Notes under the pieces: model-generated | Seen by the model: the letters and a program-made list of their open reading frames with translations, nothing else | The model's database searches: none | Told to the model about the DNA's origin: nothing | Program-made: the position numbers and the translations under genes | IMG/VR virus record: IMGVR_UViG_3300028283_000171 | Coordinates: 1 to 38,568 of that record | DNA length: 38,568 bases | DNA from: a virus | Direction: 5' to 3' (one strand) | Shown: piece by piece, positions 125 to 37,540 of the stretch | Position numbering within the stretch: the stretch's first letter is position 1 | Layout: each line of letters starts with the position of its first letter

Positions 125-1396
125 TTATGGTTGAACTAATAATTCTATTGGAATTATATAGTTCGCTATTGTTTCAATTTCTGGATTAGTCATCATTAAA
201 TCAAATCCTGTTTCAGTCCAACAGAAGTCGTCTGCACCGAGTTCAATTAATCTATCTCTTATAAGATTATTGTAATAACTAGCAAAATAATTTACTAATC
301 TTTGTATTTCACCGTTTCTTGTGAATTGTGAATTAGACGCGTCCTTTTCGAAATATTGTATATAACTAAGAACTGGCATTTTTGCCATTTTTGTGTAAAG
401 GAAAGTTCTTATCATTAACTCGTAATCATCAGCAACGTGTACATATTTATTATGTCCACCAATAGCTTGATATACTTCTTTTCTCCAACTTCTAACGTGA
501 TTAGGTGCACCAACAATATGTCTAATAGTTTTAGAATTTATATTTGGGGCCAAAGCGGTCTTGTAATATTTATCTTTATATGTGTAGTCCATATAACCAC
601 CGTAACCAAATGCCCAACTATTACCGTAATCTACTATATCTGTACTATCTTCGTATTGTTCACAAACTAAACCGTAAACAAATCCGATATCATCAGAGTA
701 TAGGTAAGATCTACATAAATTATCAAGACAACTATCAACGAGTTCGTCGTCGTGATCAACTTCTACCAAAATATCACCGTTGGCTAAACCGAAGGCAAAT
801 TTTTTGACTTCCCCAATAACACCACTAGGTTTATTTCTTCTGAATAATTGGATTCTATTATCTTTTTTAGATAATTCATTTATATAGTTATATGAAGTCA
901 TATGATCAATAGGGGAATCGTCTACTACAATCCATTCCCAATTTGTATTTGTTTGTTTTAAAATAGATTCATATAATCTTTTCAATTTAAAAATTGGTGT
1001 CATGTATAGTGTAGTGATTACAGAAAATAACATATGTGATTTATGAACAGTTACTTTTAAGAACATTCCCATTAACTCTTCTGCAATTTCTTCTGGTGAT
1101 AAAGTTACAGGTAAAGATAACCATCTCCTATTTTCTTCTATTCTAGCGTTGTAAAGATTTGGAAATCTTTTCCCCGGTATGAGATGTTGAGTCTCTAAAG
1201 GATCTGATGTTATATGCTTATCTTCAAGAAAAGTCAATATAATCTGAGGGTTAAATGTAGAAAGAACCTCTTTTAGATTTGAATCGTCTTTCATTTGTAA
1301 AAATTCAAAATCTCTATTACTAGCATATATCTCTCTGGATTTTATTAAGCTGGTATCTATTTCATTTTCGTTAATTATTAGTACTCTTATAAACAT
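125..1396 (-). CDS. Family 2 (GT-A) glycosyltransferase with N-terminal extension
   Basis: The 423-aa protein is probably a nucleotide-sugar-dependent glycosyltransferase. Residues 121-360 look like a GT2 domain. They start with the FSVITTLY strand and continue with VVDDS (158-161, nucleotide binding) and a DxD-type metal site DHDD at 214-217. A later ADDYEL (322-327) sits where the catalytic acid is expected. The first 110 residues look like a separate domain that I cannot name. The gene is a single unit, with a T/A promoter motif 19 bases before the ATG and a terminator behind it. Lying next to the capsid genes, it could modify virion glycans, host surface sugars or modified DNA bases; the sequence does not say which. 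Confidence 0.85.
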   Translation of the reverse strand: MFIRVLIINENEIDTSLIKSREIYASNRDFEFLQMKDDSNLKEVLSTFNPQIILTFLEDKHITSDPLETQHLIPGKRFPNLYNARIEENRRWLSLPVTLSPEEIAEELMGMFLKVTVHKSHMLFSVITTLYMTPIFKLKRLYESILKQTNTNWEWIVVDDSPIDHMTSYNYINELSKKDNRIQLFRRNKPSGVIGEVKKFAFGLANGDILVEVDHDDELVDSCLDNLCRSYLYSDDIGFVYGLVCEQYEDSTDIVDYGNSWAFGYGGYMDYTYKDKYYKTALAPNINSKTIRHIVGAPNHVRSWRKEVYQAIGGHNKYVHVADDYELMIRTFLYTKMAKMPVLSYIQYFEKDASNSQFTRNGEIQRLVNYFASYYNNLIRDRLIELGADDFCWTETGFDLMMTNPEIETIANYIIPIELLVQP

Positions 1397-1415
1397 AGCG
1401 CGATTTTTTTATTTT

Positions 1416-1425
1416 TATATATTAA
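1416..1425 (-). promoter_or_regulatory. Putative late promoter TTAATATATA
   Basis: Minus-strand TTAATATATA ends 19 bases before the ATG of the glycosyltransferase gene. It belongs to a motif set (TWWATATATA, 18-25 bases before starts) found in front of nine units in this window. Confidence 0.6.
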
Positions 1426-1447
1426 ATCATTGTGGTTCGAAGTGATT

Positions 1448-2200
1448 TTAAAAATTACAAAATCTTAAAATTTTGTGTTCATTTAAGGAAAGGAAATCTT
1501 TTATTAAAAATTCTATCTTATTTTTATCTAAATAACTTATATTCAATAGTCTAATGTCGTTCTTTTTACAATATAATTTCTTTAATTCGTCTCTCTGTTG
1601 TATTATTTTAAAAGCTTCTTCGCCCCCAAATATATCATATGATGCAAAATGCTGTTCACCATCAAACTCTATACAAACGTTATAGACAGGAAGATAGAAA
1701 TCAAAAGATAAACAGTTCTTAAATTTTAAATCACAAAACTTTTTTTCTTGGATGAAATTTATATTAAATTTTTTGAGAATAATTCCAATTTCTCTCTCAC
1801 CCTTGGACTCACTACAAATTGGACAGCCTTGTTTTCTATTTACGTGATCTCTTGGTTTTTGTGGAAAATCTCCGTGTTCTGGACAATTTATGATAACTTT
1901 TATTCTACCAGTGATGTAATCTACTTTATCGTAATTATATTTATCACCATGTATAATTCTAGCTTTTCTTATGAAATCTTCTTTTGTATCTGTAATTTTT
2001 TCTAGTGCACAATATTTACATCCTCTTTTTTTATGTGTATGTGAATGTAAAGTCATATGAAATGGACCGTGTTTTGGACAAATAATATCAACATAATCGT
2101 TCATAGATTTATGTTTTTTTATCAAAGAATAATCATAGGCATTATTATGAATTTTATTTGCTTTATCTATAATATCTTGTAAATTGTTTCTCTTAGACAT
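1448..2200 (-). CDS. Free-standing homing-type endonuclease (zinc ribbons plus PD-(D/E)XK-like nuclease)
   Basis: The 250-aa protein has two zinc-ribbon repeats. The first uses C41-x2-H44 and C61-x2-C64, the second C106-x2-H109 and C126-x2-C129; each begins with a CPxHG signature of the DUF723 type. A C-terminal nuclease core follows (SFDFYLP at 166-171, IEFDGEQH at 177-184), like Vsr/PD-(D/E)XK enzymes. This arrangement is typical of selfish endonucleases next to conserved phage genes, and here it follows the capsid gene. I start it at 2200 because the 14 upstream codons run into the capsid terminator. A TTAATATATA motif lies only 5 bases before this ATG, so the transcript may be nearly leaderless, or the motif may not be its promoter. 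Confidence 0.8.
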   Translation of the reverse strand: MSKRNNLQDIIDKANKIHNNAYDYSLIKKHKSMNDYVDIICPKHGPFHMTLHSHTHKKRGCKYCALEKITDTKEDFIRKARIIHGDKYNYDKVDYITGRIKVIINCPEHGDFPQKPRDHVNRKQGCPICSESKGEREIGIILKKFNINFIQEKKFCDLKFKNCLSFDFYLPVYNVCIEFDGEQHFASYDIFGGEEAFKIIQQRDELKKLYCKKNDIRLLNISYLDKNKIEFLIKDFLSLNEHKILRFCNF

Positions 2201-4132: not shown

Positions 4133-6556
4133 TTACCTTTGTAATCTTTTTAAATATGCTTCTATCTGATTATCACTAAGTTTGGTGTTATCAAATTTGT
4201 TATTACTTTCTTTTAACAAAGTCACCTTACCCATGTTTTTCTTTGCATATTCATGGAGATTTCTACTATTCCAGAAACTTTCCATTTTTTCCTCAGTCAA
4301 GTTTGTATAGAATTGTGCGCTACTTAAAATACTACCTTGTACTTCTGGTTTTAAGCTCTCCCAAATAGGTCTAAGATCGGCAGGGAGATTGTCGATCAAT
4401 GTTTCATTAAAGCTTCTTTCGGCTGTGGTTAATGCCTTAGCCATAATTGTTAACACTTCATTCTCGTTTGTATAATATTTGCTTTCGTTCATTGCAACTA
4501 CTACTTTTTCTTTATCTTCTTGTGAAAGGTTGTAATAAGCAGCCTTTTTTCTTTCAGATAAAAATTCTAAGAAATGAGGATTGTTGTCTTTAGAGGCCTC
4601 ACGTTTTTTGGACTCATTTATTTGCTTTAAGATCAATTTCTTTAATGTGTTTTCTGAATCATAAATTCTGTCACCAATGATTGATAACCTAGATTCTTGG
4701 ATTTCTTGAACTTCGCCAGTATCAGATAATTTAACAACAGCGATTCCATTATCAGCATTCATAGCTAAAATTTCACCTGTTTTATCATCATCTATTTTCA
4801 CAACTTGACCTGGAGTTAATTCAGATTTACTTTCCTCATCTTGGATTTCTTGTGCATTTACTCCTTCTACGTCAATATCCTCATCCTCTTCACCTTCAAG
4901 ACCTTGAGCCTGACCCTGAACTTGACCTTGGGCTTGTGCCTGTGGTTGTGCTCCTGGTTGTGCTTGACCTTGTGCTTGTGCTGGTTGAGCTTGAGTCATA
5001 TCATCCATAGTTTCGTCTTCATCGTAATATTTCGCAACTGAATCAGTTTTAAAATTACCCATTTTTTGTTCTGGTGAATCGATACCTTCTTTTATCATGG
5101 TTCCTTTTGAATTTAGTTTTTCAGCGATATACTTATTGTATTCGATGTTTTTATCTATTGCTTCAGCTAAATAATTACCGTAAGCGATGTTGTCTGTTAA
5201 ATTTTCAGCGATGTATTCTGAATACTTAATACTGTTATCAAGTTGTTCACCTACATATTCTGTGTATTTAATACTGTTATCAACGTGTTCGGCGATATAT
5301 TCAGCATATTTGATATTGTTATCAACATGTTCTGCAATGTATTCAGCGTACTTAATGTTGTTATCAACGTGTTCTGCGATGTATTCTGCGTAAGCGATAT
5401 TCTTTTCAAGATTCTCAGCTACATATTGTGAATAATCAATAGATTTATCAAGATTTTCAGCAATGTATTCTGAGTATTTGATAGTATTATCAACATTTTC
5501 AGCAATGTATTCTGAGAAATCAATTGATTTGTCTAATGTTTCAGCGATGTAATTTGCGTAATCGATAGATTTATCTACGGCTTCTGCAACGTATTCTGTG
5601 TAGTTAATTGCTTTTTCGAGCTCACCGGCTAAATAGTCGTTGTGTTCGATAATTTTCTCAGTCTTGTCTTTAGTTCTTTCCAATCTGAGTTCTAACTTTT
5701 CGTTGGTTTTTTTAATCTTTTTGTTTTCTTGGACTACTACCTGCATCGTTTCTGCTAAGTAATCAAGATAGGAGGCTATTTTCTGGAAGCCTTCTTGGAA
5801 GGAATCATACTTCTCATATAAATCATTCAACTTGGCTGGATCAAAGTCGCCCTTTGTAACGGCTTCATTGATTTCACTTTTTGCTTTTGTGATTTGGTCT
5901 GTTAAATAATTCGAGTACTTTTCCATCTGTTCTTTTGTTACAAATTCATTTTTATCCATATTGAACAAATCGTTTATTTTTGACTCGTCGGATATATCAT
6001 ATATCCTAAAGTTAGCACTCTCATTGAATCCCAACGATTCATTGATTGTGCGGAGTTCCATTTTAGCAGAACTAAATCCGGGATCAGCCACTGCATCATA
6101 GGTAAAAAGTTTTTTAATAGTTACTTCGCCATTAGACTCTGTTATACCTGCGGCGCGTGATGAAACAAAAATAGGGCATCCATCATCTATCAGCGCTTGG
6201 GCTTCTTTACCCCAGTGAGTATTTAGTAATCTAATTTCACCATCTACTCTATTCTTTTCTTTTACAAAAAAAGCACTTTCAACTGTATGAGATACCCTGC
6301 CTAAACTAGTATCAAAAACATCTGGATGATCAAATTCCCCATATACCACACCCAGTGTTTTCTTTCTCTCTAATAATTCTTCTAAATGGGGCAAAAATCT
6401 ATCAGCTTGATATATCCTGTCATTTCTATTTTTCACATTAAACTCTGTGAAAATACCACCAAGGATATACTGACGCTTCCCGGACGGAGCGACAGCTTCA
6501 TTTATTTTTTTTAAACCATTAATAGAATTTTCAACAATAAGAACGTTTTTTATCAT
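4133..6556 (-). CDS. 21: Fused prohead protease (gp21-like) and scaffold protein
   Basis: This 807-aa protein joins two jobs that T4 splits between gp21 and gp22. Residues 28-170 are the protease: NRNDRIY at 43-49, GEFDHP with the probable catalytic His77, FVSSR with Ser132/133, and YDAVADPGF (153-161) with the Asp. Residues 200-305 look coiled-coil. Residues 305-482 form about twelve 14-residue repeats. A Gln/Ala/Pro-rich linker (about 515-560) follows, then a small basic/acidic domain starting LTPGQVVKI and a helical tail. LKKINE-A near residue 20 fits the gp21 self-cleavage rule. The scaffold would line the prohead interior and be digested on maturation. A late-promoter motif lies 24 bases upstream; no clear terminator follows. 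Confidence 0.88.
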   Translation of the reverse strand: MIKNVLIVENSINGLKKINEAVAPSGKRQYILGGIFTEFNVKNRNDRIYQADRFLPHLEELLERKKTLGVVYGEFDHPDVFDTSLGRVSHTVESAFFVKEKNRVDGEIRLLNTHWGKEAQALIDDGCPIFVSSRAAGITESNGEVTIKKLFTYDAVADPGFSSAKMELRTINESLGFNESANFRIYDISDESKINDLFNMDKNEFVTKEQMEKYSNYLTDQITKAKSEINEAVTKGDFDPAKLNDLYEKYDSFQEGFQKIASYLDYLAETMQVVVQENKKIKKTNEKLELRLERTKDKTEKIIEHNDYLAGELEKAINYTEYVAEAVDKSIDYANYIAETLDKSIDFSEYIAENVDNTIKYSEYIAENLDKSIDYSQYVAENLEKNIAYAEYIAEHVDNNIKYAEYIAEHVDNNIKYAEYIAEHVDNSIKYTEYVGEQLDNSIKYSEYIAENLTDNIAYGNYLAEAIDKNIEYNKYIAEKLNSKGTMIKEGIDSPEQKMGNFKTDSVAKYYDEDETMDDMTQAQPAQAQGQAQPGAQPQAQAQGQVQGQAQGLEGEEDEDIDVEGVNAQEIQDEESKSELTPGQVVKIDDDKTGEILAMNADNGIAVVKLSDTGEVQEIQESRLSIIGDRIYDSENTLKKLILKQINESKKREASKDNNPHFLEFLSERKKAAYYNLSQEDKEKVVVAMNESKYYTNENEVLTIMAKALTTAERSFNETLIDNLPADLRPIWESLKPEVQGSILSSAQFYTNLTEEKMESFWNSRNLHEYAKKNMGKVTLLKESNNKFDNTKLSDNQIEAYLKRLQR
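5111..5644 (-). repeat. About twelve tandem 42-bp repeats encoding Y-x-E-Y-I-A-E units
   Basis: The scaffold part of the fused protein has units of exactly 14 residues with consensus YxEYIAExxDxxIx, from HNDYLAGELEKAIN (residue 305) to YNKYIAEKL (ending near 481). Two adjacent units, YAEYIAEHVDNNIK, are identical in protein. The periodicity is kept at the protein level with scattered DNA differences, so the array is old or under selection. Each unit contains [IV]-A-E, which fits the T4 gp21 cleavage rule. Confidence 0.95.
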
Positions 6557-14312: not shown

Positions 14313-15320
14313 TTATTTATCTAATTTTGTAGCCCCGCCTTCTGCACTATTGAGGTTATAACGTGGATGTCCTTTAACGTAATTTCCAGCGTTACTTCCT
14401 AATCTGCCTGTGCTTGGAGTGTAATAAGCAAGAGTGTCCATTGATGGGTAATAATCAAACATTATAGGATTTAATTGAATGGCTACAGAGGCGTAAACTC
14501 TTTTACCATTTTCTAAATAAGACGCGTCGTGCATTACTTGTTGAGCTTTGTACAACCAATCGTGTTCGATTGCGTAATCAACATATAATTTCTGATCAGC
14601 GTAATTTAAAACGTAAATTCTATCCATGTAAATTTTACCAGTTGGTTTGCGTAATCCCATCCAAACCAATGCTCTTCCTTTAATCTTTTTATCGTTTTTA
14701 TCACTCATTAATATTAATAACTTACATCTTTCTGGATTCTTACAATAAATATCTAAATATTTTTGTGCGTAATCGTGTTTCATGCAAGAACTATTTAAAT
14801 CACCTTGACTTTGATTCTCATAATGATCCGAAAGATAATAATATCTTATTTCTTCCCCTTCAACTAATTTAAATTTAGCAGAAGCTTTACCCATTTCAGC
14901 CTTGAAATCATTTACAAACTTTTCAATTTCAACTTGTTTGTAAGTGTCTGGGAATAATCTGTTTACTATCTTACCAACAGACATTTCTTGTCTTAATTTA
15001 GAGTTATAACAATCTCCACACGGAATCATCATATCTTGTAAATAACCAGGAACTTCAGTAGCTTTAGCTGCAGGCATAAAAGATATTTTATCTTCTTTGT
15101 CTTTTTTTGATCTATCACAATCTAAATAAGATAGTTCAAATTTATTATGACCTTTTACTGTTGGTTGTTTAGAAGCATCTAATTCTAAAATTTTTTTAGC
15201 TATAGGTGAATCTATAACACTTAATATCTTAGCAAGAACCTCAGAAATAAAAAACGAGATTTTCTTTTTTTCTTTATCGTCTGCTTCAAATAAAAATCCG
15301 TTATAGTTATACAATGCCAT
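14313..15320 (-). CDS. Tandem paralogue 4: putative internal head protein
   Basis: The 335-aa member of a four-gene tandem family has unknown activity. Shared landmarks are LSYLDCD then SFMPA (79-84), GEEIRYYY (155-162), SSCM (177-180), YLDIYCKNPERCKLLIL (188-204), KGRALVW (214-220), YMDRIY (231-236), DWLYK (254-258) and a C-terminus with TGRLGS (304-309). The invariant Cys, Asp and Arg positions could be an active site, but I cannot name the enzyme. Residues 5-13, NYNGFLFEA, resemble the T4 capsid-targeting sequence and offer a gp21-type cut after LFE. I infer packaging in the head. It is last in the operon, 16 bases after paralogue 3. Confidence 0.8.
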   Translation of the reverse strand: MALYNYNGFLFEADDKEKKKISFFISEVLAKILSVIDSPIAKKILELDASKQPTVKGHNKFELSYLDCDRSKKDKEDKISFMPAAKATEVPGYLQDMMIPCGDCYNSKLRQEMSVGKIVNRLFPDTYKQVEIEKFVNDFKAEMGKASAKFKLVEGEEIRYYYLSDHYENQSQGDLNSSCMKHDYAQKYLDIYCKNPERCKLLILMSDKNDKKIKGRALVWMGLRKPTGKIYMDRIYVLNYADQKLYVDYAIEHDWLYKAQQVMHDASYLENGKRVYASVAIQLNPIMFDYYPSMDTLAYYTPSTGRLGSNAGNYVKGHPRYNLNSAEGGATKLDK

Positions 15321-15336
15321 TTAATAATAGTTTATT

Positions 15337-16398
15337 TTATTTGTCTCTAGCGAGTCTTTTTGTACCACCATTAGCTTTATGTAATTGGTATCTTTCCATT
15401 GTTTCACCAGTAAATGGACTTTTAGTGGGTTTGCCTCTAATTGTTGATAATCTTCCAGTATCGGGGGTGTAAAAACACATTGTATCAATATAAGGATAAC
15501 GAGCAAATATACCGTGATTTTTTAATCTTGTTGTAATACCTTTATCACAAACTTGTCCGTCTTTTACAAAGGTGTAAACTTCTTTAGATTGATTTGGTTT
15601 GTACCACCAACCGTGCTCTTTAGCGTAATCTATAAAAATATTTACATCTGATTCATTTGTATAATAAATTCTATCCATCAATACTCCCTTTGTTGGGTTG
15701 CCTGGTATATCAACGACAAAGCAATCAAACCAAATTATGGCTCTTGCCACTAATTTCCCTTCTTTGTTCAACATTATTAACATGCCAACCTGTTCGGGAT
15801 TTTGGCAATAAATATCAAAAAATGATTGTTTTTCTGGTTGTTTAAGACAAGACTTCATAAGAGGAGTTCTAACATCGAGTACTCCTTCATCGGGTGCTTC
15901 TTCCATACCTGGATGAGGATTGTAATAAGATTTAACGTGATACCATTTACATATCTCTTCTCCTCTTACCATTTTTAATTCGTAATTGCCTTGATCCAAT
16001 TTACCTTTGATAAGATGTACAAAATTTTCAAGGTCTTTTGATCCAGCGTATTTAGGTAAAGTTCTGGTAACAAAGGCACCAATTCTCATAGATTGTCTGC
16101 CTTTTTCTCCCCATACTGGACTATTTGGTTTTGGATTAACTAAATCTTCTTCTGTTATACCAGCTAATCTACCAACCCTGTTAGCTGGGAGAACACTAAT
16201 AGTATCAATATCGTTAGTTAAATCAGCGTAAGAATTTTGAAATTTAATATCAGACTTAGGTAGATCTAAAAGTTCTTTTGATATTTTGGAGTCTATCGAA
16301 TTTAATAGTTCAGTAAGTTTAGGTGAAAAAAACATTGGAAGTTCTTTCACGTTAATATCACTTTCATATACATAACCATTAAAATTTTTAAGTCCCAC
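15337..16398 (-). CDS. Tandem paralogue 3: putative internal head protein
   Basis: The 353-aa member has the same order of motifs: LPANRVGRLAG, GEEICKWYHVKSYY, LMKSCLKQPE (Ser-Cys-Leu where the others have Ser-Cys-Met), FFDIYCQNPEQVGMLIML, ARAIIW, LMDRIYYTNESD, GWWYK and YTPDTGRLS. It is the most divergent of the four, replacing GRALVW by ARAIIW. The N-terminus MGLKNFNGYVYES fits the targeting pattern F-x-x-Y-V-x-E-S. C-terminal residues are basic (RLARDK), as in the other copies. It lies 17 bases after paralogue 2. Confidence 0.8.
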   Translation of the reverse strand: MGLKNFNGYVYESDINVKELPMFFSPKLTELLNSIDSKISKELLDLPKSDIKFQNSYADLTNDIDTISVLPANRVGRLAGITEEDLVNPKPNSPVWGEKGRQSMRIGAFVTRTLPKYAGSKDLENFVHLIKGKLDQGNYELKMVRGEEICKWYHVKSYYNPHPGMEEAPDEGVLDVRTPLMKSCLKQPEKQSFFDIYCQNPEQVGMLIMLNKEGKLVARAIIWFDCFVVDIPGNPTKGVLMDRIYYTNESDVNIFIDYAKEHGWWYKPNQSKEVYTFVKDGQVCDKGITTRLKNHGIFARYPYIDTMCFYTPDTGRLSTIRGKPTKSPFTGETMERYQLHKANGGTKRLARDK

Positions 16399-16415
16399 TA
16401 TAATTAAATATTATT

Positions 16416-17501
16416 TTAGTCTACTCTACCAGCTTGTCCACCACCGCCTTCAAGTTTTAGTCTTTTCATACCTTCAACTGGATTACCTGGATCAGAACCT
16501 AATCTACCAGTTCCTGGATTGTAATATTTTAAACTATCCATAAAAGGGTAAGTTTTATATTCAGCAGGTTTTAATTGAAGAGCCACAGACTTATTTACTC
16601 TCTGTCCGTTTTCTATATATGAAGCGTCGTAAGCCTGTTGATCATATTTATATAACCAACCTTTTTCCATTGCGTATTTCTTAAACAATTCTGCGTCAGA
16701 TTGTTTGAAAACATAGATTCTATCCATGAAAGTTTTATCTGTTGGTTTTCTAAGGTTTGACCACACTAGTGCTCTTCCAAGAAGTTTATTTTGAGCATTT
16801 GTTAAAATTAACATAGCACATTTTTCTGGATTTTTAACATAAATATCAAAATATGGTTGGCAATTTTTGCCTTCTTTAGAATGAGGATCGTATCTCATAC
16901 AAGAGTTGTTAAGACCAGCGTCTTTACCACCACCTGGATCTTTATAGTAATTTGATTCAGCGTACCAGAATCTAATATCTTCACCAGTAACTAATTTGAA
17001 TCTATCATAGATCATGGTTGCTGCGATTTCAGCTCTGTATGACTTAACAAAACTATCTATTGCTTTATCTGAGAAATTATCAAATAATCTATTAATGAAT
17101 TTACCAACACCAAGAGATTGTCTACCAGCACCTGTCCACATTTCACAATTTGGTGCTGGTTTTTGATCTGCTTCAGCTTGATCTTTGAATCCCATTTTAA
17201 ACCAAGCTCTTTGAGCTGGCATAAAAGATAGAGAGTCGTCCTTATCATTATCAACATCAATATAAGATATATCAAAGAGATTTTCTTCAGGCTCTTGATC
17301 AATATTTAGAATTTTACTAGCTATAGCTTTAGCTTGAAAATCTGCTGTTTTCATCATCTTTTGAAGAAATCCTTCTAGCTTGGGTGAAATAAATAACTTC
17401 AAGAGTTTCTTTTTACCTTTAACGAATTTAGGTTTTTCTGGATCAATCACTGGTTCGTCTGCTTCATTAACAAAATTTTTATAATGTGATAACGTGCTCA
17501 T
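16416..17501 (-). CDS. Tandem paralogue 2: putative internal head protein
   Basis: The 361-aa member shows SYIDVDNDKDDSLSFMPAQR, GEDIRFWYAESNYY, NNSCMRYDP, PYFDIYVKNPEKCAMLIL, LGRALVW, FMDRIYVFKQSD, GWLYK and YNPGTGRLGS. The N-terminus HYKNFVNEADEP is the closest of the four to the T4 targeting sequence (Y-x-x-F-[IV]-x-E-A) and fits a cut after VNE. A basic stretch KGKKKLLK follows. It is 17 bases downstream of paralogue 1. Confidence 0.82.
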   Translation of the reverse strand: MSTLSHYKNFVNEADEPVIDPEKPKFVKGKKKLLKLFISPKLEGFLQKMMKTADFQAKAIASKILNIDQEPEENLFDISYIDVDNDKDDSLSFMPAQRAWFKMGFKDQAEADQKPAPNCEMWTGAGRQSLGVGKFINRLFDNFSDKAIDSFVKSYRAEIAATMIYDRFKLVTGEDIRFWYAESNYYKDPGGGKDAGLNNSCMRYDPHSKEGKNCQPYFDIYVKNPEKCAMLILTNAQNKLLGRALVWSNLRKPTDKTFMDRIYVFKQSDAELFKKYAMEKGWLYKYDQQAYDASYIENGQRVNKSVALQLKPAEYKTYPFMDSLKYYNPGTGRLGSDPGNPVEGMKRLKLEGGGGQAGRVD

Positions 17502-17518
17502 ATTTTAATTTTTATTTT

Positions 17519-18499
17519 TTATCTATCTACTGGTGATTTAGCACCGTTTTGATTTTTTAAACTGTAACGAGGAAAAACTCTCGAAGGATTGTTCGGATCC
17601 CTACCAGGATTACCAGGTGTTGAAGCCGCTCTACCCGTCGCTGGTGTATAATAAGCCATAGTATCCACATAAGGATAATATGTATAATCAATTGGTTTCA
17701 AACGTGTTGCGACAGAAGTTGTTTTTCTTACTCCGTCCATCATAAATGAATCACCTTTTTTATATAACCATTTATGGTCTATAGCGTATTTATGAAAAGC
17801 TGCTTCTATTTGTGGTCCTTGACTATTAAGATAATATACCCTATCTAATAATGTGTATGGGTTTTTATCTTCTGCTGTATCACCACTTGGTTTTAATAAA
17901 TTATTCCAAACAAGTGCTCTGCCTATAATTTTATCAGGATTCTTTTCGCTAAAATAAATTAACAATCCACATTTTTCTGGATTGTTGCAATACATATCGA
18001 AAAATGGTTGTGCATTAGATCCTTGCATACAAGAATTAAAAGGTCCATCCCATCTTTCACCAAGATACCAATATCTAATTTCTTCACCGTGAACGACTTT
18101 AAATCTTTCTTGTTCTTTTTGTTTTACGTCAATTTCTGGACGATATCTGTTATAGAAACGATCTATGTCCATGTTTGTAAATTCACCTGGAAATAATTTG
18201 TTAATCATTTTGCCCCAAGTCATAGTTTGTCTCATTCTACTCTTCCAAGGATCGTCACCAGATTCCTCCACTTTTTTCATTCTATCTATTGGAAGATAAG
18301 ACACTACTTTACTATCTTTATCTACGTCTAAAAAATTAACATCAGACTCTACTTTACTTAAAATTCTCTTAGCTATAGGTTCAGAAAGTATTTTACTCAA
18401 AATCGTAATCAGATTGTCGGAATATAATACTTTCACAACATCAGTAGTTTCGTTTGATTCTTTCATATATACATTAAACTTTAATACGTAATTGTTCAT
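17519..18499 (-). CDS. Tandem paralogue 1: putative internal head protein
   Basis: This 326-aa first gene of the operon has FLDVDKDSKVVSYLPIDR, GEEIRYWYLGERW, FNSCMQGSN, FFDMYCNNPEKCGLLIYF, GRALVW, LLDRVYYLN, KWLYK and YTPATGRAAS. The N-terminus reads LKFNVYMKES, which keeps the pattern F-x-x-Y-M-x-E-S of a targeting sequence. A late-promoter motif lies 25 bases upstream. A TAnnTTTG box 5 bases before the ATG is probably chance because it would leave no leader. I chose this start because the alignment with the paralogues begins here. Confidence 0.8.
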   Translation of the reverse strand: MNNYVLKFNVYMKESNETTDVVKVLYSDNLITILSKILSEPIAKRILSKVESDVNFLDVDKDSKVVSYLPIDRMKKVEESGDDPWKSRMRQTMTWGKMINKLFPGEFTNMDIDRFYNRYRPEIDVKQKEQERFKVVHGEEIRYWYLGERWDGPFNSCMQGSNAQPFFDMYCNNPEKCGLLIYFSEKNPDKIIGRALVWNNLLKPSGDTAEDKNPYTLLDRVYYLNSQGPQIEAAFHKYAIDHKWLYKKGDSFMMDGVRKTTSVATRLKPIDYTYYPYVDTMAYYTPATGRAASTPGNPGRDPNNPSRVFPRYSLKNQNGAKSPVDR

Positions 18500-27384: not shown

Positions 27385-28494
27385 ATGATTCTAAATATTG
27401 AGAGCCAAACAGAACTTTCAGGATTCTACGTAGTTTACAATCGAACTGTTATCAACGAAAAAGAAGGAATATACGGCATATCACATTTAATAGAACACTT
27501 GATGAGTCATAATTTCAATGATACTTTAGTAGAAGAGTTCCAAAATTCAGGGTTAGCTTGGAATGCGTACACTTCACCAACTAATATAGTATTCTATTTA
27601 AGTGGTTTAGATAAATACGTTACCAAATATAAATATAAGTTTTTAAATAAGTTATCAAAAATAAACATAGAACAAAAAGATTTCGAATTAGAGAAAACTG
27701 TTCTTCTCGAAGAGTACACGTCTATATTCAATATGCAAAGTCCTTCACATCTTTTAAATTTGTATAGAAAGAAATTGAACTCTTATAATTCAATAGGAAA
27801 AAAGAAAGATATAGAGAAAATAACATTAGATAATTGTAAAGAATATTTTAACATATATTATAGTAAACCTTCTAAAATTATCAATGTTTCCAAAAATAAT
27901 CCTTTTGTGTCTGATATAGAATTTAACGATTTTAAAAATGATTATTATTACAATTATACTAATGGTTCTAATAAAGATATCGATAAACATAAAAGTCTTT
28001 TAAATAAATCATCAATAATATACTTATCACCAGTAATAGAAGATAACTGGGCCACCGTGTTTTTTATAAATTATTTGTTATCAAATGGTATCAGTTCTCC
28101 TTTATATAAAAATATAAGAAAAAAAGCAGGATTGGCTTATTATATAAGATGTACAGTAGATAGATTAAGTGATTATTCTGGAATTAATATAATATCAACC
28201 GAAACAGATGACGATAAAGTTGATAAATTAATGTTACTTTTAGACGAAACTTTATCAGATTTAAGTTTCTTGACAAAATCTAAATTTGATCAGGTTAAAA
28301 ACTCAATAATTAATAAAATTGATACAGTAGATATAAACAGACATAGTAATGTTGAAACCTATATAAAACCAGAAACTTGGGCAATAGAGAATAATATTCA
28401 CGATATAACATTAGATAAAGTAATAGAAACTTATAAAAAATATTACAATGTTGATAACTTCTATAAAAGTGTAGATAAAAGAGAATTTATGTAA
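27385..28494 (+). CDS. M16-family zinc peptidase
   Basis: The 369-aa protein has the inverted zinc motif HLIEH at 34-38 (HxxEH) inside ISHLIEHLM, followed by the distal Glu in LEKTVLLEEY (102-111), as in pitrilysin/insulinase/MPP enzymes. The C-terminal half carries RKKAGLAYYIR, the Arg/Tyr site of the second M16 domain. At 369 residues it is one M16 A+B half-unit, like bacterial PqqL-type or MPP-beta-like peptidases, and may dimerise. No signal peptide is seen, so it would be cytoplasmic or packaged. Its promoter matches the late type, which hints at a role in assembly or lysis-phase host control. An earlier ATG at 27378 opens only a 7-codon frame. Confidence 0.85.
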   Translation: MILNIESQTELSGFYVVYNRTVINEKEGIYGISHLIEHLMSHNFNDTLVEEFQNSGLAWNAYTSPTNIVFYLSGLDKYVTKYKYKFLNKLSKINIEQKDFELEKTVLLEEYTSIFNMQSPSHLLNLYRKKLNSYNSIGKKKDIEKITLDNCKEYFNIYYSKPSKIINVSKNNPFVSDIEFNDFKNDYYYNYTNGSNKDIDKHKSLLNKSSIIYLSPVIEDNWATVFFINYLLSNGISSPLYKNIRKKAGLAYYIRCTVDRLSDYSGINIISTETDDDKVDKLMLLLDETLSDLSFLTKSKFDQVKNSIINKIDTVDINRHSNVETYIKPETWAIENNIHDITLDKVIETYKKYYNVDNFYKSVDKREFM

Positions 28495-28800: not shown

Positions 28801-29720
28801 AATTTATCTTTTTTTCTTTCAATACTGATTGTAGAATTTTCATACAAGAAATCTCTGATTTTATTTACATTTAAGTTACCACAATAGGATAGCGTGTGGA
28901 TATTTCCTTTTTTATGTATTTTCACATTATTTAAATTAGCGTTATTTATTAATATTTTTTTGATATTCTTTTAAAAAATCATAGTTTCCAAGAATATACC
29001 AATTTTTTTGTTGTCCGTTATAAATAGATCCGTCACCGTCAAAGTATCCTCTCATAAAATGATGAATTAATTTTTGATTTATATTTGGAAATCGTAAAGT
29101 GAAAGTTTTATTCGGAAAACAACCGTGTTTTATCAAATCACTAACCATTTCCTTAGAAGTTATTCTAATTTGTGCTGAAAAAAATTCACCACCGAAAGAT
29201 CTCTCTTTTCTTATTTTTATTTTGTGAGGTAAATTAAAGTTAGATTTAAACAATTCTATATGATTTATATCTTTTTTAGATAATTTAATTGATACATGAT
29301 TACATTTATTATCATTAGATTTATAAATACAACCATCAGCATAAAGAAACCCCAACCAGTATGCCTTTTTTCGTTGTTTATCACATTGAAAATGTTTCTA
29401 TCAAAATCGTATATCTTATTACCTCTATTAATAATTTCGTAATTTTTTAAGATTGAAACAACTCTTCTATGACTTATCAAATATTTTTTTGATATCTCAT
29501 AAATTGGTATTTTGTTACCATATTCTTTTAATATAGATTGAATATCAATGTCTTTTGTTTTTATAAACGGTTCTCTATAAACACAATTTTCCATTAATAT
29601 CTTTTTAATATATCTTTTATCACATCCATATTTATCTGATAAATGTAACAATGTTACATTTCCTATATTACCTATATATTCTTTAATTAGTAATTTTTCA
29701 TCTATATACACTTTTTTCAT
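28782..29720 (-). pseudogene. LAGLIDADG homing endonuclease broken by two frameshifts
   Basis: Three pieces in different frames together make a complete LAGLIDADG enzyme. The N-terminal part (29720 to about 29362) holds helix-turn-helix-like segments. The middle part holds both dodecapeptide motifs, WLGFLYADGC and FMRGYFDGDGSI. The C-terminal part (about 28935 to 28782) ends KIRDFLYENSTISIERKK, typical for the family. The first break is at an A6 run (about 29367) where one more A restores the frame; the second is at an A7 run (about 28957) where one fewer A does. It is either a decayed selfish gene or two homopolymer sequencing errors. It lies between two plus-strand units. Confidence 0.8.
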
Positions 29721-29839: not shown

Positions 29840-30250
29840 ATGATAAACATATTCCTTGACGACATACGTCATCCATACGACGCCTATCCTTATACAAAGG
29901 ACACTAGATATTTACAGCTTAAATGGATTATTGTTAGATCATATAATGAATTCACGTCTTTGATAAAAAATTCATTAAAAATAGAAGGTGATGTGGGAAT
30001 CATAAGTTTCGATCACGATTTAGCAGACGAACACTATTTTAGTGATAATCAGCCGTGGTCGACTGAAAACTCTATTGATTATTTCTCATATAAAGAGAAG
30101 ACTGGTTACGAATGCGCTAAATGGTTATGTGATTATTGTTTGGATAACAATGTTAAATTACCAGAAACTTTAGTTCATTCCTTTAATCAAACAGGTTCGG
30201 CAAACATAAGACATTATATAAGAAATTTTAAAAAGCACACAGAATTATAA
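29840..30250 (+). CDS. cREC-type (cyclic-phosphate processing receiver-like) protein
   Basis: The 136-aa protein matches the receiver-like family often found in phages and linked to cyclic phosphate processing. It has FLDDIRHP at 5-12, W-I-I-V-R-S-Y-N-E-F near 29-38, ISFDHDLADEHY (55-66), KTGYECAKWLCDYC (86-99), and a late HSFNQTGSANI (113-123). The DD, DHD and HS positions would form the metal and phosphate site. It is likely a small enzyme acting on RNA ends or nucleotides. The start is fixed by the first strand, which begins at once. It heads a close-packed plus-strand cluster. Confidence 0.8.
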   Translation: MINIFLDDIRHPYDAYPYTKDTRYLQLKWIIVRSYNEFTSLIKNSLKIEGDVGIISFDHDLADEHYFSDNQPWSTENSIDYFSYKEKTGYECAKWLCDYCLDNNVKLPETLVHSFNQTGSANIRHYIRNFKKHTEL

Positions 30251-30666: not shown

Positions 30667-30686
30667 AAAACAAATTGAAGAAAATT

Positions 30687-31205
30687 ATGAGCAAAAAAGA
30701 AGCAACTGAAAGAATTAACAAGCACATCAGAGGTGTTAATGAAGTGAGAGTTGTTGGCGAAGGGATAGAATCACAAGTGGTTACTATTCACGAAGCATTG
30801 AGAATGGCTGAAGATAGAGAACTAGATTTAGTAGAAATTTCACCAAACGCCGTTCCACCTATTTGTAAAATTGTTGACTACGGAAAACTCTTATACGAAA
30901 GAAAACAAAAAGAGAAAATCCAAAAAGCAAACAACAAGAAAGTTAAAGTAAAAGAGTTAAGATTTACCTACAATACAGGGGATCACGATTTCAACTTTAA
31001 GTTGAAACACGCTACAGAATTTCTCAAAGAAGGAAACAAAGTGAAAGCTTTTGTATTCTTCTCGGGTAGAGAGTGTAACTATGTTGAAATGGGAAATATT
31101 CTTTTGTTAAAATTTGTTGACGCTTTAACAGAGTACGGTAAACCTGAAGCTCTTCCTAAAATGGAAGGAAGAAGACTGTGGGTTATGGTGTCTCCTAAAA
31201 AATAA
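30687..31205 (+). CDS. infC: Translation initiation factor IF-3
   Basis: The 172-aa protein is a complete IF-3. The N-domain has RINKHIR and the long block LDLVEISPNAVPPICKIVDY followed by GK..YE. A Lys-rich linker contains KVKVKELRF. The C-domain has DHDFNFKLKHATEFL, GNKVKAFVFFSGRE, then GNILLLKF and a final MEGRRLWVMVSPKK. It binds the 30S subunit and checks start codons. The sequence looks like a Bacteroidota host gene acquired by the phage, though codon use is as AT-rich as that of its neighbours. I start at the ATG; a TTG four codons earlier is less likely. It may favour phage mRNAs lacking Shine-Dalgarno sites. Confidence 0.96.
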   Translation: MSKKEATERINKHIRGVNEVRVVGEGIESQVVTIHEALRMAEDRELDLVEISPNAVPPICKIVDYGKLLYERKQKEKIQKANNKKVKVKELRFTYNTGDHDFNFKLKHATEFLKEGNKVKAFVFFSGRECNYVEMGNILLLKFVDALTEYGKPEALPKMEGRRLWVMVSPKK

Positions 31206-32053: not shown

Positions 32054-32110
32054 TCAACACGTATTAAAAATCCATTAGTTAGGTGATTTTTCATTTGTGG
32101 ATTTTTGTTC

Positions 32111-32120
32111 TTAATATATA
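32111..32120 (+). promoter_or_regulatory. Putative late promoter TTAATATATA
   Basis: TTAATATATA ends 12 bases before the ATG of the T9SS-tagged protein and is followed by GGAAGAAAAA, a purine-rich leader. Confidence 0.45.
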
Positions 32121-32132
32121 GGAAGAAAAAAT

Positions 32133-32534
32133 ATGACGATGAAGAAACTTATTTTATCTATTTTATTTGCTTTAATAATATCAATTGCTCAATCGGCTAA
32201 ACCTTTTAGTGGTGGTATTGTTGTTATTGAGAGAGAACATTTTGATCAATACGGATATTCAAAAATATATGATTGTGATAAATGGGCGGAAATAAAAACA
32301 GAAAATTGTAACGTTGAAATTTATATGAAAATAAATCCAGGTAATATTGATTTTATGGTTAAATCTGATGCTTTTGGATATAAAATATTTTTATACGATA
32401 TATTTGGAAGAAAATTGATGGAGCAAGATTTAAAATGTAAAACAACAATTAAGAAAGAAGGATTGACTAATGGATTATATCTTATAAAAATAACAGACGG
32501 AACACAAGTATTCACAAAGAGAATAAATTTATAA
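32133..32534 (+). CDS. Secreted protein with type IX secretion (T9SS) C-terminal sorting domain
   Basis: The 133-aa protein has a clear signal peptide: Lys-Lys, then LILSILFALIISIAQS (5-21), with a likely cut near SA-K. The last 60 residues have the pattern of the T9SS type A sorting domain: YKIFLYDIFGRKLMEQ (83-98), GLTNGLYLIKITDGTQVFTK (110-129), ending in RINL. In Bacteroidota this domain takes proteins through the outer membrane and is often followed by anchoring. The stretch between (about 24-70) is short and has no known enzyme domain, so the cargo may be small. A start two codons later (MKK) is possible. It has a late-type promoter motif. Confidence 0.82.
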   Translation: MTMKKLILSILFALIISIAQSAKPFSGGIVVIEREHFDQYGYSKIYDCDKWAEIKTENCNVEIYMKINPGNIDFMVKSDAFGYKIFLYDIFGRKLMEQDLKCKTTIKKEGLTNGLYLIKITDGTQVFTKRINL

Positions 32535-32536
32535 AT

Positions 32537-32806
32537 ATGGCAAAGATTAAAAAAGTAGACGAATTATTCGAATATCCACATGATATTCCTATAAACCTGG
32601 ACAAAGATAGATTGTACGCATCAGGATTAAATTCTAAACCAGGCGAAAGGTTGAGGAATTTTCTATCACCATTCTTCGCTTATTTTGATATTATAGAAGA
32701 CGATGATATTTCCTATGAAGATAAAGAGAAACTCCTTAAAGGACTCACTAAAGAATGTAAAGAACTCTTGCCGTACATAAAGTATTGGTTAAGGAAAATA
32801 GAATAA
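32537..32806 (+). CDS. Small hypothetical protein
   Basis: The 89-aa protein contains the helical stretches ERLRNFLSPFFAYFDII and DKEKLLKGLTKECKELLPY. No signal peptide is present. It starts 2 bases after the T9SS-tagged gene, which suggests translational coupling, and ends at a strong terminator. Function unknown; it may act with the secreted protein, for example as an immunity or chaperone factor, but this is only context. Confidence 0.65.
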   Translation: MAKIKKVDELFEYPHDIPINLDKDRLYASGLNSKPGERLRNFLSPFFAYFDIIEDDDISYEDKEKLLKGLTKECKELLPYIKYWLRKIE

Positions 32807-32810
32807 AAAA

Positions 32811-32829
32811 AGAGGACTTTAAGTCCTCT
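32811..32829 (+). terminator. Bidirectional Rho-independent terminator
   Basis: An 8-bp stem (AGAGGACT at 32811-32818, AGTCCTCT at 32822-32829) is extended by A/T pairs and followed by Ts. It ends the plus-strand cluster and, on the other strand, the portal-like pseudogene. Confidence 0.9.
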
Positions 32830-32836
32830 TTTTTGT

Positions 32837-32971: not shown

Positions 32972-33418
32972 TTAATATGGAATATTTGTATTATTATCTT
33001 CGTTCCAATTTTCTTCACCGTAAGGATCTAAATCAGAATAAACCCTATTAATAGGTGTTTCTCCGAATGTATCTAATCCGCCATCACCTGCCCACTCAAC
33101 ATCTTCGTGGTACTCACTCATTAACTTTTTTATCTGATCTTCAGCTTCTTCTCTTGATAAACCGTTAACAGGAATAGTGAATTTTCTCACCTTTGGTCCT
33201 TCATAAGTCGAATTCCAATCTATTTTATCATCACCATCATATTCATGTATATCTTTTTTTACATCAATAGTCTTCTTAACAAATAAATCATACATATTAC
33301 TATGTAAAGCATTATAAGCTTTAGGAATTTCCATAATGGCTTCACCCAAAGGTGAAATAATAGGTTCCTTTTCTTTTTTAATAATTCCCATCTTCTTTAG
33401 AATATCTTTTATTTTCAT
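32972..33418 (-). CDS. Truncated, rearranged portal-like ORF
   Basis: The 148-aa product is built from portal pieces. Residues 34-51 (AYNALHSNMYDLFVKKTI) match portal 46-76 with a short deletion. Residues 77-109 (VRKFTIPVNGLSREEAEDQI and LMSEYHEDVEW) match portal 278-310, the likely clip-domain part. Residues 143-148 (NTNIPY) match portal 322-327, where a TAA now ends it. About 226 portal residues between the first two blocks are missing. An inserted LDPYGEENW (130-138) is a motif shared with unrelated ORFs. It overlaps the RNase H stop (ATGA) and has an AGGAGGT Shine-Dalgarno sequence, so it may well be translated. Decoy, regulator or dead gene are all possible. Confidence 0.75.
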   Translation of the reverse strand: MKIKDILKKMGIIKKEKEPIISPLGEAIMEIPKAYNALHSNMYDLFVKKTIDVKKDIHEYDGDDKIDWNSTYEGPKVRKFTIPVNGLSREEAEDQIKKLMSEYHEDVEWAGDGGLDTFGETPINRVYSDLDPYGEENWNEDNNTNIPY

Positions 33419-35614: not shown

Positions 35615-37540
35615 ATGATTACGAAATACAATATTTTTGAGAGTGTCGATGGATGGATCGATCTTCTTGATTATTTAAATGAAAATGATTTAAAAAATTT
35701 AAATAAAGTAACTGACGCGTATAAATACCGTGATAGTATTGATAATAATATCGCTGTAAAAGAACATTTATCATATATGTTAAAAGGAAAACTTATAAAG
35801 ATTCATTATGATAATAATTATATAGAAGGAGAAGTGCCTTCTGAAATTAGTTTCGGATCAAATCAACCATTCATTAACATTAGTAATAAAGAAGATCGTC
35901 TTATGAGATTTAGAACTATTGATTTTTGTACAAATCCGAATATGATTCAGGTTTACTCTGAAATTGAAAAAAAACCAAGAGTGAGATGGTTTAAGCACGG
36001 TAAATTACAAAATGATACTTTAAATGAATACGTCGAATTTGTACCAGTTAAATACGAGTACGGTGGTTATTATGGAGGCAAAGATGTTTTTAGATTACAA
36101 AATTACGCCAAAATGGCCAGGATAGGGTTATTACAGAATTTCCTCAAAAGTGGCGATTGGTATAGAATAAGGTTCAATGATTATAAGCATATTGTTATTA
36201 AAATAGAACAAATTAGATACGGTGGTGATGTAGTATCGATAGGATATTTTATGGAATATAATAAAGGGGAAATTCGTGGATCAAAAAATGGACATAGTGT
36301 TATAGTTATAGATACATGGAAAGACGATAGAGATATAGTAATTGAACACATAGAACCAATGGATAATATATTAAATAGGAGAAAATTCAGAGAATTAAAT
36401 ATACAAGTTGGTGATAATGTTAAAGTTTCAAATCCTGGTTTAGAAGATAAGATATTTAAGATAACTAGTGTGAATAAAGAAGAACATAGTTATTTTTCCA
36501 AATCATGGACTGTTTCATATCCAGAATTAACAAAGAAAAATCATAAAATATTACCAATAGATATAGTTGAAAATTTAGGAAGAGATTTGATTAATAAAGA
36601 ACTAGATCCTTATGGTGAAGAAGTATGGGAAAGTAAAAAAAGTAAGAAAAGAAACGCTACTAGAATAAAAATGGCTGAGATAGATCCTTACGGTGAAGAA
36701 GACTGGGGATGGGACGTCAAAATAAATGACGACGACTTTAAAGACAAATATATAGTCTTCAAAAAGAAGTTTTTAGGTAGTTACGATTATTATTTTGCTT
36801 TTTTAACGAGTCATTATCAAATACTTTCCTTTGGGGGATCACAAGATTTGAACATAATTAAAAAACATCAAGTTTTATCACCTATATCAGAAAGAGAAAT
36901 AGAAAGAATTAAAAAAGATAAAATAGAATTAGTGCCTTATCATTGGGTAGGAAAATATAGTAAAAACGAGTTCGGAAATTCAGAAAGAATGCCATATTCA
37001 TCACTCAAAAAAGATGTTCTATTTCTAGATCAAGATTATATGGATAATTATTTATATATGAATGAGTCTGTTAACGAAGAATACGTCGAATTTAATAAAA
37101 CAGGTGAAGAATTGGAATTAAAACGTTGGCATAATTATTTTGAAGATTATATAGTTCCTTTTTTAAGAAAAGGTGAATGGTACAGAATAATATGTGAAAT
37201 ACCATATGATAAAAATGATTACGATGTACTTGAACGACCAGGAAAAGAAAATAAACTTATCACTAAAAGAAGAAAGAAAATGTTGTTATATGTTTTTAGA
37301 TTCCATTCTACTCATAGTGATTGGGCATGGGATATAATACAATGTGATAGAATGTACAAACATGGTGAGATCGAAGAAGTCAACCCATTCAAAGATTATA
37401 TACAAATGGATAGATTAAGAAATTATCAAAATGTAAAAATTCAACACATAGTCAATCCAGAGATAAATAGAAAAAGAGAAGAGATGAGATTGAGATTACA
37501 CCCTAACGATCCATACGGAGAGGAGGAATGGAATGATTAA
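35615..37540 (+). CDS. Hypothetical 641-aa protein with internal repeats and three DPYGEExW motifs
   Basis: I do not recognise a family. The start at 35615 follows the endonuclease stop by 4 bases; an upstream in-frame start at 35573 would overlap it and adds no conserved sequence. The N-terminus MITKYNIFESVDGW recalls a capsid-targeting sequence. Two related blocks, EYVEF with a later KSGDWYRIRF (first half) and EYVEF with RKGEWYRIIC (second half), show an internal duplication. DPYGEEVW and DPYGEEDW lie between the halves, and DPYGEEEW is almost at the C-terminus. The layout looks like two or three short genes fused. The last motif's codons supply a GGAGG-like ribosome site for the next gene. 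Confidence 0.72.
   Translation: MITKYNIFESVDGWIDLLDYLNENDLKNLNKVTDAYKYRDSIDNNIAVKEHLSYMLKGKLIKIHYDNNYIEGEVPSEISFGSNQPFINISNKEDRLMRFRTIDFCTNPNMIQVYSEIEKKPRVRWFKHGKLQNDTLNEYVEFVPVKYEYGGYYGGKDVFRLQNYAKMARIGLLQNFLKSGDWYRIRFNDYKHIVIKIEQIRYGGDVVSIGYFMEYNKGEIRGSKNGHSVIVIDTWKDDRDIVIEHIEPMDNILNRRKFRELNIQVGDNVKVSNPGLEDKIFKITSVNKEEHSYFSKSWTVSYPELTKKNHKILPIDIVENLGRDLINKELDPYGEEVWESKKSKKRNATRIKMAEIDPYGEEDWGWDVKINDDDFKDKYIVFKKKFLGSYDYYFAFLTSHYQILSFGGSQDLNIIKKHQVLSPISEREIERIKKDKIELVPYHWVGKYSKNEFGNSERMPYSSLKKDVLFLDQDYMDNYLYMNESVNEEYVEFNKTGEELELKRWHNYFEDYIVPFLRKGEWYRIICEIPYDKNDYDVLERPGKENKLITKRRKKMLLYVFRFHSTHSDWAWDIIQCDRMYKHGEIEEVNPFKDYIQMDRLRNYQNVKIQHIVNPEINRKREEMRLRLHPNDPYGEEEWND
36605..36706 (+). repeat. 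Two DPYGEExW-coding copies 54 bases apart
   Basis: Copies at 36605-36628 and 36683-36706 encode DPYGEEVW and DPYGEEDW. Further copies lie at 37508-37531 and 38341-38364, and on the minus strand at 33005-33028. Codons differ between copies at several third positions. Confidence 0.85.

Follow-up and report, generated by a model that had tools for sequence, protein, structure and literature searches.

The open reading frame at 32133-32534 (+) of the window, which is the whole 38,568-base IMG/VR record IMGVR_UViG_3300028283_000171, starts with ATG and encodes 133 amino acids (window ORF table). The sequence-only reading had described it as a phage gene whose product has a signal peptide and, at the C-terminus, a domain resembling type A sorting tags of the type IX secretion system (T9SS). 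The motifs quoted there (YDIFGRKL, GLYLIKITDG and the terminal KRINL) are all present in the translation, and both parts of the description agree with the sequence, the TIGR04183 and PF18962 profiles and the modelled fold. The following features were found at the locus:

32065..32107, plus strand: terminator-like hairpin, AAAAATCCA...TGGATTTTTG, with a T-rich tail, between the upstream 190-aa gene and the 133-aa gene
32111..32122, plus strand: promoter-like motif TTAATATATAGG shortly before the ATG (TATATA enrichment; identity in LR756501)
32133..32189, plus strand: putative signal peptide, residues 1-19 (sequence; model helix 3-20; ortholog codons)
32190..32312, plus strand: short cargo region, residues 20-60 (model; dN/dS; genome search)
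32313..32531, plus strand: type A T9SS C-terminal sorting domain, residues 61-133, seven strands (profiles, PDB sequence matches, fold)
32537..32806, plus strand: 89-aa companion gene, 2 bases past the stop of the 133-aa gene (ORF table, profiles, synteny)
32806..32834, either strand: bidirectional intrinsic terminator at the end of the two-gene unit (13-pair stem, T-run on both strands)

The record is probably a fragment. It aligns with the 735-kb phage LR756501 at 85% identity over this region (LR756503, a further record, has an equal length and the same match) and contains T4-like capsid (Gp23), portal (Gp20) and IF3 genes. The window comes from a phage related to LR756501, which is a Mahaphage. 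The paper that describes the 735-kb phage assigns all its genomes above 634 kb to the Mahaphage clade, for which Bacteroidetes hosts are predicted (PMC7162821), and a Bacteroidota host of the window phage is predicted only from its kinship with LR756501.

The 133-aa gene has an ortholog in LR756501 in the same gene order, at 84% identity. The dN/dS ratio between the two is 0.21 overall, 0.31 for residues 20-65 and 0.146 for the tag. The ortholog has a two-residue insertion in the signal peptide, but the 19 aligned codons there carry no nonsynonymous changes. The synteny, the identity, the low dN/dS and the unchanged aligned signal peptide together indicate that the gene is under selection. In tblastn searches of phage records only LR756501 and LR756503 matched.

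Several other genes of the window were also characterized. The IF-3 gene (30675-31205, +) is complete (TIGR00168, 178.7 bits) and 99% identical to that of the 735-kb phage, with a dN/dS of 0.01; IF3 in huge phages has already been published. An M16 (insulinase-like) peptidase gene at 27385-28494 (+) has both Pfam M16 domains and is 91% identical in the same phage, and a protein with a cyclic-phosphate processing receiver domain (PF20274, 70 bits) is encoded at 29840-30250 (+). At 28942-29720 (-) a 137-aa and a 151-aa ORF overlap in different frames; they resemble a single gene split by a frameshift, perhaps, as judged by eye, for a homing endonuclease, and LR756501 lacks them in the syntenic stretch from 2621 to 2988. 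At 14313-18499 (-) four successive genes for similar-looking proteins of 326-361 aa form an apparent tandem family; the single member scanned had no Pfam match. The peptide motif DPYGEExW occurs in several different proteins of the window phage and its 735-kb relative, often near the C-terminus. In the window it lies at 33028 (-) and at 36605, 36683, 37508 and 38341 (+), and elsewhere at positions 6179, 8865, 8943, 9591 and 10062 of L001 and 204 of L003. It might be a tag for processing, targeting or assembly, or reflect the spread of a repeat.

The 133-aa gene appears to have its own transcription signals. The upstream hairpin has a predicted RNA folding energy of -12.6 kcal/mol (z -2.87 against shuffled sequences) and is largely retained in LR756501, where the promoter-like motif at 32111-32122 is unchanged. 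In a gene list made by hand from the ORF table, 17 of 38 genes have TATATA in the 70 nt before them, where 3.1 would be expected; the exact 12-mer TTAATATATAGG, with two mismatches allowed, showed no enrichment across the window. Motifs of the TATATA type, found on both strands over 1396-34489, precede the capsid, protease and portal genes and also an exonuclease gene. The motif had been called a late-type promoter. The enrichment bears out the motif, but not the word late, as a copy also stands before the 5'-3' exonuclease gene (33415).

Downstream, the 89-aa gene is likely on the same transcript, which the bidirectional terminator would close; terminator-like sites of this kind numbered 3, against 0.3 expected. 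The 89-aa protein has no signal peptide, and profile scans gave no confident family for it. Its counterpart in LR756501 is syntenic and 91% identical, with a dN/dS of 0.05. Both genes occur together in LR756501 and in none of 8 other huge phages, a pattern of little weight since the window and LR756501 are close kin. Of the suggested pair, the two-base gap is correct; a functional pairing is backed by no more than a shared transcription unit and co-presence in two closely related phages.

Judging by the sequence and the model, residues 1-19 resemble a type I signal peptide. Read by eye, the N-terminus is M-T-M-K-K (two lysines), followed by a hydrophobic core and SIA|Q, with no lipobox, and the AlphaFold model has a helix at residues 3-20. 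Cleavage is likely at A19|Q20, as predicted from the sequence. Glutamine right behind the cleavage site is typical for Bacteroidetes (the Q-rule, PMC5837995). The cargo region contains two cysteines (C48 and C59) and is mostly of low confidence in the model, with the stretch 22-58 poorly defined. In the modelled mature protein the tag makes up about 73 of 114 residues, leaving a cargo of about 40. No relative of the whole protein or of its cargo was found in 395 Bacteroidota genomes at the thresholds used, a search that shows little as it had no positive control. Peptide patterns detected no further relatives of the 133-aa protein, the 89-aa companion or IF3 in IMG/VR and GTDB contigs; the step requires short near-exact peptides, so this absence means little. 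The tag alone, used as a pattern on the same contigs, found two bacterial tags.

The profile search proposed with the sequence-only reading supports a type A tag. TIGR04183 (T9SS type A) matched residues 68-131 of 133 with 32.2 bits (cut-off 23, E 7.6e-8), and PF18962 matched with 27.0 bits, exactly equal to its cut-off of 27 (E 5.4e-6). The T9SS type C signal NF033708 scored 26.8 bits, below its cut-off of 40, and the type B sorting domain TIGR04131 was absent from the NCBIfam matches at E up to 1. A phmmer search of all PDB sequences returned 8glj and 8glk only (E 4e-4 and 8e-3), which, by their entry titles, show the tags of FspA and NucA in the T9SS translocon (PMC10994853). The tag has two weak points. 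The YPNP motif is degenerate (MKINPG, with NP kept and YP replaced by MK-I) while the GLY core is kept, and the near-invariant C-terminal lysine column, the importance of which has been described (PMC10994853), holds Arg130 next to Lys129 when aligned with bacterial and phage tags. Several bacterial tags of the sample also have arginine in this column.

The structural model was built from a four-row alignment and has a mean pLDDT of 72. It contains seven strands over residues 61-132 (block mean pLDDT 76-90), and VIA-align superposed it on the C-terminal domains of mirolase (Z 9.3, rmsd 1.7 over 70) and NucA (Z 8.8, rmsd 2.1 over 72). The best structural matches were the DUF3244 proteins 3sd2 and 3d33 (Z 10 over 81-84 residues), which extend further N-terminally than the tag matches. 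With such similar Z values the fold alone cannot decide between the two. The protein could accordingly be a periplasmic or surface-associated Ig-like protein of DUF3244-like build that is exported by Sec only and does not use the T9SS, as its size class is the same and the degenerate YPNP and lysine positions would fit. This is unlikely: the DUF3244 profile (PF11589) had no match in the window at E 10, nor in the Pfam scan at E 1, whereas the T9SS tag profiles match. In addition, identity is higher to the NucA and FspA tags (24-27%) than to DUF3244 (11-17%), and T9SS tags are the sole PDB sequence matches. Membership in DUF3244, the secreted Ig-like proteins of Bacteroides, was therefore rejected by profile, and a common Ig-like fold is insufficient for membership.

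Ig-like folds are common among virion proteins, and the promoter-like motif is shared with the capsid and portal genes, so the domain might be in structural use in a virion or lysis component. Such a role is the least probable of the readings weighed here, given the putative Sec signal peptide with a Q-rule site, the sorting-tag profile matches and the non-structural neighbours (exonuclease, IF3, M16 peptidase). The evidence is good that this conserved phage gene, from a lineage whose predicted hosts are Bacteroidetes, carries a type A T9SS tag.

Sorting tags also recur in other huge phages. The search of related phages that had been suggested placed TIGR04183 above its cut-off in 4 other huge phage genomes, namely LR756501 (in two places), LR756502 (642 kb), LR756504 (636 kb) and LR756500 (462 kb). 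LR756511, LR756508 and Lak-A2 have no tag over the TIGR04183 cut-off. Likewise, none of 11 comparison phages exceeded it, among them phiKZ, T4, G, Atu_ph07, Phosso, SPN3US, crAss001 and two Lak phages; the phage set was small and picked by hand. Whole proteins ending in a type A tag are found in LR756502 (184 aa, 46.3 bits), LR756500 (369 aa, 32.7 bits) and LR756504 (496 aa, 26.2 bits), all with signal peptides. In those of LR756500 and LR756504, and in the second tagged protein of LR756501, the signal peptide ends in a small residue followed by Gln. The cargos of these other proteins are not recognisably related to that of the 133-aa protein.

Two further candidates were set aside. A second LR756504 protein (329 aa, L017) was below reporting in the NCBIfam scan and was left out of the count. 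The second LR756501 protein is not a clear substrate, as its tag-like domain is internal and precedes a FISUMP domain. It is a 446-aa signal-peptide protein encoded at 625-1965 (-) of L003, and its neighbours, named by eye, are a cation-efflux-like and a PspC-like protein.

The patchy spread among huge phages, with unrelated cargos, could also mean that the gene was captured from a host and is a passenger without a phage role (a host-derived moron or drift). Capture would be easy, as tag proteins are abundant in Bacteroidota: T9SS tags were present in 33 of the 41 sampled genomes and absent in 8. However, purifying selection between the two phages, the fully conserved aligned signal peptide, the promoter-like motif and terminator belonging to the gene and the lack of a cargo relative in the 395 genomes make a mere passenger highly improbable.

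The reading favoured here, with a rough probability of 0.66, is that the phage encodes a substrate for the T9SS of its host, exported through Sec and SprA/PorV, with its cargo anchored or released. Against it weigh the degenerate YPNP and lysine positions, a PF18962 score that does no more than equal its cut-off, the fold shared with DUF3244, the shallow alignment behind the model and the indirect host prediction, as 8 of 41 sampled Bacteroidota genomes lacked T9SS tags. The Sec signal peptide would carry the 133-aa protein to the periplasm, where signal peptidase I would expose Gln20. In the infected Bacteroidota cell, the SprA/PorV translocon would then bind the seven-stranded type A domain and export the protein. 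By analogy with published T9SS work, the tag would be removed as in other type A substrates, and the cargo of about 40 residues would either be attached to lipopolysaccharide at the surface or set free. Type A tags proved necessary for export by the T9SS and sufficient for it, fused proteins included, and PorV serves them all (PMC12618676), so the 133-aa protein most likely exits via the host T9SS. Proteins bearing the tag are destined to be anchored at the surface or released (PMC10994853). The phage thus probably places the protein on or outside the infected cell, as had been proposed from the sequence.

What the protein would do there is more tentative. The favoured guess, at well under even odds, is superinfection exclusion through a changed host surface, in which an altered surface of the infected cell would keep competing phages from adsorbing or infecting. 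In huge phages, genes for cell-surface proteins have been noted that might influence how other phages infect (PMC7162821). In Flavobacterium columnare, sprA and gld (T9SS/gliding) mutants resist phage V156 (PMC9233685), so an altered T9SS-dependent surface could exclude rivals. Blocking of receptors or altered gliding, the purposes named in the sequence-only reading, are a reasonable guess, to which these mutants lend indirect support.

The same mutants can be read another way. As the mature protein is mostly tag, it might be a decoy: an abundant, nearly cargo-free tag that occupies PorV and the translocon, slows the host T9SS and thereby removes T9SS-dependent phage receptors. Tags contact the translocon via a very large interface (PMC10994853), which would suit such a role, but there seems to be more PorV than needed, or it is recycled, and cells cope with type A fusions made in large amounts (PMC12618676). 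Similar mini-tag proteins exist in bacteria, and in other huge phages the tags sit on proteins with larger cargo. A decoy is therefore very unlikely. A broader idea, that Bacteroidota Mahaphages routinely exploit the host T9SS with lineage-specific sets of tagged proteins, and that the near-cargo-free tag here covers the cell surface or occupies the translocon, excluding rivals that need T9SS-dependent surface proteins, is speculative and unlikely as a whole.

Should the predicted export take place, the largest known phages would exert effects beyond the cell they infect via a secretion machine of their host, one found only in the phylum of the host and its close kin. Superinfection exclusion or remodelling of the surface in Bacteroidota would then have a concrete route open to testing, the protein would supply a minimal natural T9SS substrate, and the tag would serve as a host-phylum marker for orphan megaphages.

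Among known systems, the closest in architecture are the T9SS type A proteins (the NucA, FspA, RemA and mirolase tags), which have a signal peptide and a seven-stranded C-terminal tag and are alike in profile and fold. The protein described here differs in being phage-encoded, with a very short cargo, a degenerate YPNP and Arg in the Lys column. Three small proteins consisting of signal peptide and tag (L047, L048 and L049; about 108-112 aa, with a linker of about 15-20 residues) were found in Bacteroidota genomes. They share with it the Gln after the predicted cleavage site, a short linker and a complete type A tag, but have a canonical YPNP/FPNP and a shorter linker, and their cargo region is unrelated.

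Several viral proteins are also comparable. The BFVD proteins A0A6J5L910, A0A6J5M2J1 and A0A8D9CC94 are structural matches, alike by fold search only; two of the BFVD matches are named secretion system C-terminal sorting domain, and A0A8D9CC94 (120 aa, uncultured marine phage) has 28% identity in that search. T9SS sorting domains have been reported near BACON-domain genes of crAss-like phages (PMC6949934), and Q-rule signal peptides in Porphyromonas phages (PMC10367356). A limited search of the open-access literature found no earlier report of tags recurring across Mahaphages. Phage-encoded T9SS cargo is already known from the Cryophage described in 2020, which carries endoglucanase, GH39 and PA14 proteins and for which superinfection exclusion was among the suggestions (PMC7468147). 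Both phages encode proteins with type A tags. The Cryophage genes are variable and have enzyme or PA14 domains, whereas the gene described here is small, conserved and almost without cargo, and belongs to a Mahaphage relative. What is new is the near-absent cargo and the recurrence of tags in megaphages.
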